A stretch of 64,000 nt of DNA from Chloroflexota bacterium (GTDB taxonomy: Bacteria; Chloroflexota; Anaerolineae; Anaerolineales; Villigracilaceae). Below, piece after piece: positions 1-3,052 of this stretch. How positions within the stretch are numbered: position 1 is the stretch's first letter; the number at the start of each line of letters is the position of its first letter. Both the position numbers and the translations under genes were made by a program. The stretch is taken from positions 1 to 64,000 of the forward strand of contig JACRBN010000017.1 of assembly GCA_016213105.1 (NCBI GenBank), given 5' to 3'. The notes under the pieces were generated by a model. It saw nothing but the letters and a program-made list of their open reading frames with translations, was not told the DNA's origin and did no database searches.

Positions 1-149
1 CCGATTACAAGAACCTGCTGGCCTCCACCGGCGAAGCCTCCGCTGCCGACCTGGCCGACCGCTTCGGCATCGACATCCGCACGCGCAAGTTCTGGGATGA
101 CAGCCTGGCCATCATTGGCAAGCGCATCGACCGTTATTGCGCGATCTAA
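1..149 (+). CDS. M3 family oligoendopeptidase, C-terminal end (partial)
   Basis: Reading frame open from the window edge (first full codon at 3) to TAA at 147-149. The 48 visible residues include LLASTGEASAADLADRFGID and a WDDSLAIIGKRID tail. This resembles the C-terminal helices of M3 (thimet/PepF-like) oligoendopeptidases, where an 'LL..G.....DL....GID....FW...L..I...ID' pattern is usual. The zinc site lies outside the window, so activity cannot be judged. A second, complete M3 peptidase is encoded at 24718-26436. The call rests on the C-terminal pattern only. Confidence 0.6.
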   Translation, partial: DYKNLLASTGEASAADLADRFGIDIRTRKFWDDSLAIIGKRIDRYCAI

Positions 150-156
150 CCAACAC

Positions 157-183
157 GCAGCGCAAGATGCCATCTTGCGCTGC
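157..183. repeat. Short perfect hairpin, TGCCA-type
   Basis: GCAGCGCAAGATG (157-169) and CATCTTGCGCTGC (171-183) are perfect complements around one base. It sits between the M3 peptidase stop and the rhodanese start. The core GCGCAAGATGCCATCTTGCGC closely resembles the hairpin at 10314-10334. There is no T-run, so it is more like a REP-type repeat than an intrinsic terminator. Confidence 0.6.
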
Positions 184-202
184 ATCCTAGTTTGGATTGA
201 CC

Positions 203-715
203 ATGAAAAAAACATTCACCAAGAAAGTCCTGGTTCTGGCGGCCCTGCTCCTGCTGCTGGCGACCACGGCCTGCAAGAAGGACGCCTACCCCAATCCGTA
301 TCCCAACCCCACGGCGCGTCAATCCACGCCGACGCTGGCTCCCACCGTCCAGCCGACGGCCACGCTCTTCGTGATGCCCGCCTCGGAGGATGCCGTTCCG
401 CGCATCAGCATCGAGGATGCCAAGGCAGCCTTGGACGCCGGGACCGCCATCTTCATTGATGTGCGCGGCACTGAAAATTACAACCTGGTGCATATCCCCG
501 GCGCGCTCGAGCTTTCGATGGATCAATACGAAACAGGCCTGGCGGATGTCGACCGCGACGCGCTGATCATCACCTACTGCACCTGAACGAACGAGCACAC
601 GAGCGCCGGTGCGGCGTTCATCCTGTACCAGCAAGGCTTTACCCGCGTCTACGCCCTCCTGGGCGGGTTGAATGTCTGGATCGCCGCGGGTTACCCGACC
701 GAATCAAATCCATGA
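203..715 (+). CDS. Rhodanese-like lipoprotein, candidate selenoprotein (in-frame TGA at 584-586)
   Basis: From ATG 203 (GGA 6 nt upstream; a TTG at 197 is the alternative) the protein has a lipoprotein-type signal ending near TTAC, a Thr/Pro linker and a rhodanese domain with IDVRGTENYNLVHIPGA. TGA at 584-586 would end it at YCT. The same frame continues with TNEHTSAGAAFILYQQGF and ALLGGLNVWIAAGYP, the normal second half of a rhodanese, to TGA 713-715. That stop overlaps the next ATG (ATGA, 712-715). The TGA falls where homologues of the 'YCxCPNEHTSA' type carry a second Cys, giving Cys126-Thr-Sec128. A SECIS-like hairpin follows at 601-619. Likely an envelope sulfurtransferase or redox protein. 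The alternative is a simple nonsense mutation or sequencing error. Confidence 0.72.
601..619 (+). promoter_or_regulatory. Candidate bacterial SECIS hairpin
   Basis: GAGCGCCG (601-608) pairs with CGGCGTTC (612-619) as an 8-bp stem with one G-U pair. The apical loop is the 3-nt GTG (609-611). The stem begins 14 nt, and the loop 22 nt, after the in-frame TGA at 584-586. Known bacterial SECIS elements have a small apical loop with a G (often GU) at its start, roughly 16-37 nt after UGA. The fit is good, but a hairpin in GC-rich coding sequence can arise by chance. Confidence 0.6.
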
Positions 716-1080
716 CGATTTACGCCCTCGGCCACGTGCAACTGTCCATGCCGGCCGGGCAGGAGGAGCGGGCGCGCGCGTTCTATATTTCCCTGCTGGG
801 ATTCAGCGAAGTCCCCAAGCCTGCCGAGCTTGCCAAACGCGGCGGCGCCTGGTTCGAGCAGGGAGCGGTGAAGCTGCACCTGGGCATCGAGGCGGATTTT
901 CGTCCCCTCCAAAAGGCGCATCCTGCCTTCCTGGTGGATGACCTGTCCATGTTGATTGCCCGCCTCCAGGCCAATAGCTGCGACGTGGACACCTCCCAGC
1001 CGCCCCTGGATGGTTATTGCCGCGCGCACGTGTTCGACCCCTTTGGGAACCGACTGGAACTGATGGAGAAAGTTGGATGA
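712..1080 (+). CDS. VOC (glyoxalase/bleomycin-resistance fold) family protein
   Basis: A 122-residue single VOC module: GHVQLSMPAGQEERARAFY at the start (first beta strand with the metal-site His), LGF, a central 'HLGIE' strand, then HPAFLVDD and a C-terminal VFDPFGNRLELME. These are hallmarks of small glyoxalase/extradiol-dioxygenase-like proteins. His and Glu at the usual metal positions are visible. The substrate is unknown. ATG 712 overlaps the rhodanese stop by ATGA and its own TGA overlaps the cupin ATG (1077), so the three genes are translationally coupled. This coupling supports read-through of the upstream TGA. Confidence 0.85.
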   Translation: MTIYALGHVQLSMPAGQEERARAFYISLLGFSEVPKPAELAKRGGAWFEQGAVKLHLGIEADFRPLQKAHPAFLVDDLSMLIARLQANSCDVDTSQPPLDGYCRAHVFDPFGNRLELMEKVG

Positions 1081-1388
1081 ACGAACCCCGCATTTCGCCC
1101 TGGACCTCCAGACTGCCCCCGTCCGAGACGGCGCTTCGGCGTCTGTTGGCGGAGGAGAATCTCCCGGCCTACGCCTGGTCCAACGGCCCATACGATCTCT
1201 ATGCCCCGCACACCCACGAGTATGACAAGGTGATTTACGTGGTGCGCGGTTCGATCACCTTCCAGTTGATCGAGCTGGGCACCTGGTACGTGCTCAACCC
1301 TGGCGACCGCCTCGACCTGCCCGCCGGCACTGTCCACGCCGCGGAGGTGGGCGCGGAGGGCGTCGTTTGCCTGGAGGCACATCGATAA
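1077..1388 (+). CDS. Small cupin-domain protein
   Basis: 103 residues from ATG 1077, chosen because it overlaps the VOC stop (ATGA) and because the earlier in-frame TTG lies inside the VOC gene. The conserved cupin pattern is present: HTHEYDKVIYVVRG (motif 1, two His and a downstream Glu), then NPGDRLDLPAGTVHAAEVG (motif 2). It folds as a single double-stranded beta-helix, probably metal binding. Function is not deducible. It is the last gene of the operon, followed by an intrinsic terminator at 1425. Confidence 0.85.
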   Translation: MNEPRISPWTSRLPPSETALRRLLAEENLPAYAWSNGPYDLYAPHTHEYDKVIYVVRGSITFQLIELGTWYVLNPGDRLDLPAGTVHAAEVGAEGVVCLEAHR

Positions 1389-1424
1389 CGGGACCCGCTT
1401 ACGGTCCAGGACCAAAATGAAAAA

Positions 1425-1458
1425 CGGACGCGCTCATCGGCGCGTCCGCTTTTTTTTT
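1425..1458 (+). terminator. Intrinsic terminator after the rhodanese-VOC-cupin operon
   Basis: CGGACGCGC (1425-1433) pairs with GCGCGTCCG (1440-1448), loop TCATCG, followed by CT and a run of eight or more T. It lies 37 nt after the cupin stop. Confidence 0.9.
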
Positions 1459-1460
1459 CT

Positions 1461-1515
1461 GGACTGCGGACTTTAGTCCGCATTTACAGAGGGCGCAGAC
1501 TGAAGTCTGCACTCC
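1461..1515. repeat. Double-hairpin intergenic repeat, copy 1
   Basis: Two small palindromes in tandem, GCGGACTTTAGTCCGC (1466-1481) and GCAGACTGAAGTCTGC (1495-1510), flanked by GGACT on the left and ACTCC on the right. Related elements lie at 23319, 47627 and 49322, with a single-hairpin form at 20696. It sits between two convergent genes. Confidence 0.75.
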
Positions 1516-1518
1516 GGG

Positions 1519-2817
1519 TTAGGCGTTGCCGGTCAACCAGCCGCGCAGTTCCATGGCCTTGACCACACGCGAGATGGCGACCATGTAAGCCGCATCGCGC
1601 ATGTAGACGCCTTCCTTCTCGCTCATTTCGAGCACGCCGTGGAAAGCGGAGGTCATCTTCTGGTCGAGCTTCTGCAGCACTTCGTCCTTGGGCCAGTAGA
1701 AGTTCATGTCGTTCTGGACCGATTCGAAGTAGGAGGTGGTCACGCCGCCGGCGTTGCACAGGAAGTCGGGGATGTTGAAGATCTTGTTGGCCTTGAAGAA
1801 GTCGTCGGCCTCGGGGGTGGTGGGGCCGTTCGCGCCTTCCGCGACGATCTTGACGCGGCTGGACATCTTCTTGATGGTGTCGGCGTTGACGTGGCCTTCG
1901 ATGGCCGCGGGGATCAACACGTCGGCTTCGTAGGTGATCCAGGCGTCGCCGTCCTCGACCTTGTAGCCGGCCTTCTCAGCCTTGGCCTGGTCGATGGTGC
2001 CGTACTCGTCCACGATGGAGAGCAGGAAGTGCGGGTCGATGCCGCCGACCTTGCTGTAGGTGAAGGATTTCTTGGCATGGCGGTCGTAGCAGGAGACGCA
2101 GGCGACGGTGCCGCCGAGCATTTCCACGAAGCCGATGGCCGCGTACTGGGCCACGTTGCCGAAGCCTTCGATGGCCGCGACGGATTTGGTCGAGTCCATC
2201 TTGAGGTGCTTCATGGCTTCGCGCACTGTGTAGATCACGCCGTAGCCGGTCGCTTCGGTGCGGCCCAGGGAGCCGCCGCCGCCAAGCGGCTTGCCGGTGA
2301 ACACACCGGGGGTGTACTGGCCGACCAGGCGGGAGTACTCATCCATCATCCAGCCCATCATCTGGGGGGTGGTGCCAACATCGGGGGCCGGCACATCATT
2401 GCGCGGGCCGATGTTCTTCCACATGGAGCGCACCCAACCGCGGCACAGTTCTTCCTTCTCGTTGACGGTCAGCGTGGAGGGATCCACGATGATGCCGCCC
2501 TTGCCGCCGCCCAACGGGATGTCGGCCACGGCGCACTTCCAGGTCATCCAGGTGGCCAGGGCGCGGACGGTGTCCATCGTCTCGGCCGGGTGGAAGCGGA
2601 TGCCGCCCTTGTTGGGGCCGCGGGCGTCGTTGTGTTGAACGCGATAGCCCTGGAAGACGCGCAGCGAGCCGTCATCCATGCGAACGGGAATGCGGAAGGA
2701 ATACTCCCGCATGGGCCAGCGCAGTACTTCGGCGATGCCAGGGTCGAGGTTCAACTGCTTGGCAACACCATCGAACTGCTTCTGCGCCATTTCAAAGGCA
2801 TTGATTGGTCCGGACAT
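1519..2817 (-). CDS. gdhA: Glu/Leu/Phe/Val dehydrogenase (glutamate dehydrogenase)
   Basis: A 432-residue enzyme of the usual hexameric GDH length. It interconverts glutamate with 2-oxoglutarate and ammonia using NAD(P). Visible elements are the substrate region GPNKGGIRFHP, the catalytic lysine motif PLGGGKGGI (about residue 105), NDVPAPDVGT, and the Rossmann loop IEGFGNVA (about 215). ATG 2817 is preceded by AGGAGA. It is encoded alone, between the repeat at 1461 and the hairpin at 2860. Cofactor preference cannot be read safely. Confidence 0.95.
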   Translation of the reverse strand: MSGPINAFEMAQKQFDGVAKQLNLDPGIAEVLRWPMREYSFRIPVRMDDGSLRVFQGYRVQHNDARGPNKGGIRFHPAETMDTVRALATWMTWKCAVADIPLGGGKGGIIVDPSTLTVNEKEELCRGWVRSMWKNIGPRNDVPAPDVGTTPQMMGWMMDEYSRLVGQYTPGVFTGKPLGGGGSLGRTEATGYGVIYTVREAMKHLKMDSTKSVAAIEGFGNVAQYAAIGFVEMLGGTVACVSCYDRHAKKSFTYSKVGGIDPHFLLSIVDEYGTIDQAKAEKAGYKVEDGDAWITYEADVLIPAAIEGHVNADTIKKMSSRVKIVAEGANGPTTPEADDFFKANKIFNIPDFLCNAGGVTTSYFESVQNDMNFYWPKDEVLQKLDQKMTSAFHGVLEMSEKEGVYMRDAAYMVAISRVVKAMELRGWLTGNA

Positions 2818-2859
2818 GGTTTTCTCCTAGGAGATAGTGGTGGATTGTGGCGAAAATAT

Positions 2860-2889
2860 AAGCGGGCAGCCCGGTACGGGTGCCCGCTT
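2860..2889 (-). terminator. GC-rich hairpin upstream of gdhA
   Basis: AAGCGGGCA (2860-2868) pairs with TGCCCGCTT (2881-2889), with a further CCCG/CGGG inside. On the minus strand it is followed by ATATTTT. It could end transcription from the gene at 3053-4777 or act as an attenuator in the gdhA leader. The remaining sequence to 3052 shows no gene. Confidence 0.55.
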
Positions 2890-3052
2890 TTATTTCAGAC
2901 TATGTACTGCCAGATGATCATATTATGTTACCTGTCAGACAACTCTGCTCAAGATTAACCGATAAGCAATCCAAAGTCAATATGACAAAACTCCACTCCT
3001 TTGTTGGAAAAATTGTGATGAATCTCACGAAAGTGGGCCAGGCTGTGAACAT

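Follow-up and report, generated by a model that had tools for sequence, protein, structure and literature searches.

The window that we analysed is a stretch of 64,000 nucleotides (bases 1-64000 of contig C16) from a genome of 5.39 Mb in 28 contigs, estimated to be 97.55% complete. Close to its start, on the forward strand, lies a gene for a rhodanese lipoprotein (203-715) that encodes 170 amino acids plus a stop if the in-frame TGA at 584-586, which is codon 128, is read through. The frame then stays open for 42 codons before ending at the TGA at 713-715, and a genome of the same genus (G592) contains the same frame with the same TGA. Its first codons (203-274, forward strand) specify a lysine-rich signal peptide whose lipobox, by the usual pattern, ends in Cys24, the probable lipid-modified residue. 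The PF00581 rhodanese domain covers residues 70-161 and crosses the TGA, scoring 53.8 bits against a Pfam gathering threshold of 22.2. With the TGA translated as selenocysteine (Sec), the active-site loop reads YCTU (Cys126-Thr-TGA128), in which the codon at 578-580 of the forward strand specifies the probable canonical rhodanese cysteine. A first-pass annotation of this DNA had placed the TGA inside the active-site loop of a rhodanese and had described the frame as open for 42 further codons, and both statements were borne out.

Two genes follow on the same strand, one of the VOC/glyoxalase family (712-1080; PF00903, 26.4 bits) and one for a small cupin (1077-1388; PF07883, 32.9 bits), neither of which matched an NCBIfam model. 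As had been described earlier, the rhodanese stop overlaps the VOC start in an ATGA at 712-715, and the VOC stop overlaps the cupin start in a second ATGA at 1077-1080; the overlap of the rhodanese and VOC genes is also present in G592. Convergent with this putative operon is a glutamate dehydrogenase gene (1519-2817, reverse strand), which is 94.7% identical in G592 and is placed after the cupin gene there as well. The contig start truncates a further gene, of which the 3' end remains at 3-149 of the forward strand; a similar end precedes the rhodanese gene in G592.

Homologues were searched for with a query in which the TGA was entered as Cys. Matches with E 1e-15 or better occurred in 75 of 396 genomes sampled from the class and 145 of 400 sampled from the order, two samples that overlap, and an in-frame TGA was present in nearly all of the rows listed for the order-genome matches. 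We aligned 110 loci and left one (L084) out of the codon count, as it did not cover codon 128. Among the other 109, codon 128 was TGA in 98, TGC in two, TGT in two and a serine codon in seven; these loci are a non-random draw, so 98/109 cannot serve as an estimate of frequency. The set consisted of best matches from the searches (L017, L028-L056 and L058-L078), to which we deliberately added 11 stop-free rows from the class search, nine rows with two TGA codons, and then rows mostly with one TGA. As judged from the alignment, the recurrence of TGA at this one codon in 98 of 109 homologous loci is beyond chance. Close homologues carry TGA here rather than TGC, including the G592 protein, which is 74% identical to that of the window.

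Where the TGA was not conserved, it was in some homologues swapped for Cys: three distant loci (L081, L085 and L088) have Cys at the place of codon 128, forming a CxC loop. Of the remaining eight loci without TGA, seven are more distant rhodaneses with an ordinary loop of the CRSGxRS type, and one (L079) has a DLS loop. Of the 98 TGA loci, 91 have a Cys codon at position 126, while the other seven have TGA there as well (L055, L091, L092, L093, L095, L096 and L097), giving a UTU loop; this share is inflated by the deliberate retrieval of two-TGA rows. These homologues are possibly double-Sec rhodaneses served by a single hairpin. A further scan of contigs returned one distant match, from Arenimonas (31% identity), which we left out of the analysis. 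The source genome also contains, on its contig C6, a TGA-free frame of 604 residues in which three stretches resemble rhodanese (L023 and L024).

In bacteria, a SECIS element is a conserved hairpin that lies just after the UGA and has a G in its apical loop. The window contains a SECIS-like hairpin at 601-619 (forward strand), with eight base pairs and the loop GUG, that begins 14 nt after the TGA. Folded by itself, this 19-nt segment had a free energy of -11.6 kcal/mol, and none of 200 shuffled sequences was as stable. However, the 47 nt from the TGA onward preferred a different structure when folded freely and were no more stable than shuffles (z -0.39), which we counted against the argument for a hairpin from the single sequence. 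An Rfam scan of window positions 1-3000 at E 10 gave eight weak matches, all outside the hairpin, and thus no independent support.

Comparison among loci was more informative. The 48 nt from the TGA onward aligned without gaps across all 98 TGA loci, and RNAalifold, without guidance, predicted five core pairs (603-607 with 613-617). These were paired in 98.8% of 485 cells from 97 distinct rows, against 95.4% in shuffles, and compensatory changes were seen at three of the five pairs, with 16 doubly changed cells versus a shuffled mean of 1.6 (none of 500 shuffles reached as many). When the partner strand was slid, at most 59.2% of the cells were paired and at most six were doubly changed. The G at +25 in the loop was invariant in all 98 loci, and in one locus (L090) the serine codon TCA replaced AGC with the stem pairing kept. 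Pairs outside the core were not general: those at offsets 24-28, 18-34 and 17-35 could form in 15, 60 and 57 of the 98 loci, respectively. The eight-pair hairpin with the GTG loop, given in the first-pass annotation as lying 14 nt after the TGA, is real in the window, but only its five inner pairs are general, and the full form belongs to the window and its same-genus relative. What the family has in common is a SECIS-type hairpin after the UGA, conserved in its core and in its apical-loop G.

Codon use in this segment was likewise constrained. At each of five hairpin codons a single synonym predominated (85/98, 90/97, 80/83, 85/88 and 89/98 loci), while the same synonyms made up 23-37% of the codons for their amino acids elsewhere in the same genes. 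Over 1000 random pairs, the seven codons preceding the TGA showed a mean synonymous difference of 0.477, which fell to 0.167 within the hairpin and reached 0.709 further downstream. Relative to G592, codons +6 to +11 contained no synonymous change over 5.0 synonymous sites and one change of the other kind. The segment 3' of the TGA is very probably translated and under purifying selection, since its dN/dS against G592 was 0.12, compared with 0.082 in a 38-codon upstream block; the value of 0.301 for the 11 codons directly before the TGA comes from just two changes, one of them synonymous, which are too few to weigh.

The source genome contains the complete set of genes for Sec insertion, selA, selB, selC and selD. 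The selB, selA and selD matches scored 326, 527 and 351 bits (cut-offs 242, 268 and 125), and the tRNA-Sec scored 70.4 bits (gathering threshold 47) and was called by ARAGORN as tRNA-SeC with the anticodon TCA (UCA). Among 14 control genomes, two passed the cut-off for selB, five for tRNA-Sec, one for selA and two for selD; because five controls passed it, the tRNA-Sec score, taken by itself, discriminates least among the four, whereas the UCA anticodon is specific. One in-frame TGA interrupts the selD match (L026, contig C2, 28955-29887), so that the selD of this organism is probably itself a selenoprotein. SelB was over its cut-off in 59 of 61 genomes tested, comprising all 32 with a Sec-rhodanese match at E 1e-15 and 27 of the 29 without one. 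Because selB is nearly universal in this set, its co-occurrence with the Sec rhodanese hardly discriminates; its absence only from two genomes that also have no rhodanese match (G253 and G003) fits but proves little.

An AlphaFold2 model made with 72 aligned sequences had a mean pLDDT of 84.6, with ten-residue blocks at 92 to 98 over the domain. The best Foldseek matches in the PDB were rhodaneses (E 7.4e-9), and the protein thus combines a Pfam rhodanese score over the gathering threshold with a predicted rhodanese fold. In the predicted secondary structure, a strand (121-125) is followed by a loop (126-131) and a helix (132-143), and position 126, directly after the strand, is where we take the catalytic cysteine of rhodaneses usually to lie. 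Profile alignments put the catalytic-cysteine place at Cys126 for 3tp9 and BH2092 and at residue 128 for GlpE, and Cys126 is likely, although not certain, to be the standard catalytic cysteine in the modelled fold. In the alignment A2, which comprises 72 of the 98 TGA loci (the window protein with 71 relatives), the invariant positions were Arg67, Asp86, Arg88, 126, 128, Glu131, Ser134, Ala138, Gly154, Gly155 and Trp159, where 126 and 128 are Cys or TGA, read as C.

The rhodanese had earlier been assigned to the outer membrane face, which was not borne out. An Omp85 search gave no match in the source genome (97.55% complete) but matched seven of 14 control genomes, all seven of which we take to have an outer membrane. 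As no Omp85 was found, an outer membrane is probably absent from this organism, an outer-membrane location of the rhodanese was rejected, and the lipoprotein more likely faces outward on the cytoplasmic membrane. The lipobox pattern was matched in 39 of the 98 TGA loci; because it is crude and at least one match (L040) is doubtful, the occurrence of a lipobox or N-terminal hydrophobic stretch in many relatives suggests a trend only.

Together, the Sec machinery, the TGA in 98 of 109 aligned loci and the conserved hairpin core strongly support the earlier proposal of Sec insertion, and none of the findings that the first-pass annotation had listed as contrary to it was obtained. From these comparisons we regard it as nearly certain that codon 128 would be read as Sec. 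To the more complete reading, in which the UGA at 584-586 is decoded as Sec by the hairpin route to give a 170-residue Cys126-Thr-Sec128 rhodanese lipoprotein, we assign a probability of about 0.9. SelB and tRNA-Sec would insert Sec at the UGA under the guidance of the hairpin at 601-619, and the product would be anchored in the cytoplasmic membrane, facing outward. There, Cys126 may react with a thiol oxidant or accept sulfane sulfur, with thiosulfate, polysulfide or a persulfide as the donor. Sec128 may then attack the Cys126 adduct, closing a selenenylsulfide within the protein, and the Cys126/Sec128 pair may be reset by a thiol reductant of the membrane. The protein could in this way act at the cell surface as a persulfide reductase or a sulfur-transfer redox enzyme. 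We propose this Cys/Sec persulfide or thiol redox role tentatively, at somewhat under even odds.

The VOC and cupin genes are probably co-translated with the rhodanese gene in a small operon. The UGA might then also be a selenium switch: without selenium, translation would stop at codon 128 and less VOC and cupin protein would be made, an idea that agrees with the ATGA overlaps linking three genes in the window and the rhodanese and VOC genes in G592. Among 37 family loci including that of the window, however, an ATGA overlap occurs at the rhodanese stop in only four; 17 have a VOC relative downstream and 20 a cupin relative, at least one of the two follows in 25, and in 12 neither was found. 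Flanks were shorter than 1000 bases in four of the 37 (L066, L067, L069 and L078) and under 250 bases in two of the 12 without either neighbour. The operon organisation, in which VOC and cupin genes follow the rhodanese, is real in the window but present in only part of the family, translational coupling is not general, and we consider such a switch unlikely.

That the protein handles selenium itself, as a selenide carrier or in selenite reduction, instead of sulfur, appears less probable again. It would be in keeping with the formation of a rhodanese perselenide in vitro, known to us from the title of Ogasawara 2001 as cited in PMC5877670, and with the rhodanese-like protein ExtH, which according to the consulted part of the same source is encoded in a gene cluster of Geobacter linked to the reduction of selenite, but the neighbouring genes that could be assigned encode VOC, cupin and glutamate dehydrogenase proteins.

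Reading of the TGA as some other amino acid, through a reassigned code or general read-through, would fit any frame that is open through a TGA. It would not explain why the hairpin is conserved or why the genome has the full Sec machinery, and the distant homologues with a CxC loop have Cys at this very place; moreover, the rhodanese and VOC genes both appear to end in TGA, at stops that overlap the start of the gene after them, so that reassignment was rejected and this reading as a whole is very improbable. Least credible, with a probability close to nil, is a true stop in a decayed or mis-sequenced gene with a truncated product, which would suit translation table 11, in which the gene terminates at codon 128, and the free fold without a strong hairpin, but the same TGA in 98 of 109 loci, including that of the same-genus genome, and the purifying selection 3' of it led us to reject a pseudogene or sequencing error.

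Selenocysteine decoding of codon 128 places the protein near known rhodanese selenoproteins. In the portions of the sources consulted, a rhodanese-like selenoprotein form 3 with the motif CxU corresponds to NF041203 (PMC13188914), a 'COG0607 form 2' with CxU appears in a review that refers for SECIS search to an article in Bioinformatics from 2005 (PMC9312934), rhodanese-type selenoproteins are tabulated from marine metagenomes (PMC1088965, PMC2398784), a 'Sulfurtransferase homologous to a rhodanese-like protein' is tabulated as a selenoprotein of bacterial genomes (PMC5029168), and three selenoprotein families were counted in Chloroflexi in 2006 (PMC1794560). With CxU rhodanese selenoproteins listed in two of these sources, both reviews (PMC13188914, PMC9312934), and represented by an NCBIfam model, the novelty claimed for this selenoprotein context was overstated. 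The clade itself was not found in the consulted parts of the mostly open-access literature on rhodanese and Chloroflexota selenoproteins.

The window protein shares with NF041203 (rhodanese_LYCAU) a rhodanese domain with a Cys-x-Sec motif, its YCTU agreeing with the CxU of that family, but differs in having YCTU in place of LYCAU and a lipoprotein anchor. It scored 88.5 bits against the curated cut-off of 115 and so falls outside the model as it stands, while each of the 72 members of A2 matched the model with an E value of at most 1e-10 (the best being 4.8e-30). No genome among 400 from the phylum passed the 115-bit cut-off in a six-frame search, in which an unread TGA lowers the score (81.9 for the window; 107.2 for L139, or 114.4 if read through), and a few members of the phylum might come near or over the cut-off with the TGA read through. 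By these scores, the window protein looks like the same kind as NF041203, on a sister branch most of which lies below the present cut-off. TsoB (NF045694, rhodanese/DsbD fusion-like) also has a rhodanese domain with Sec, but the match was weak (25.7 bits) and covered only positions 60-160 of the 572 in that model, and TsoB is described in the consulted part of PMC13188914 as having a UxxxxU motif with two Sec. Another comparison is with the thiosulfate sulfurtransferase GlpE (1gmx; E 1.6e-6), which resembles the window protein in its single rhodanese fold (Foldseek TM 0.86, target-normalised) and differs in that its active-site stretch, as aligned, is two residues shorter. GlpE presumably has neither Sec nor a lipoprotein anchor.

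In six of eight loci from the phylum search (L141-L146), the Sec rhodanese forms the C-terminal part of an antiporter-like frame of 567-628 residues. All six have YCTU and a similar hairpin sequence, and the three that were scanned matched both PF00999 and PF00581, as a cation/proton antiporter fusion. It is conceivable, although we rate it as somewhat improbable, that the window protein belongs to a large unmodelled branch of membrane-anchored Sec rhodaneses active at the cell surface, with one strongly conserved hairpin serving both CxU and double-Sec UxU and with fusions of the same Sec module to cation/proton antiporters in other lineages of the phylum. If so, the Sec module may link ion transport to persulfide or redox conditions at the membrane.

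Translation table 11 would end genes of this type at codon 127, and the second half of the domain would be lost. As 145 of 400 order genomes were matched and nearly all listed rows have an in-frame TGA, the use of selenium at the surface of these bacteria has probably been under-counted. The natural CxC, CxU and UxU variants of a similar loop would also offer a clean system for the contribution of Sec to rhodanese.
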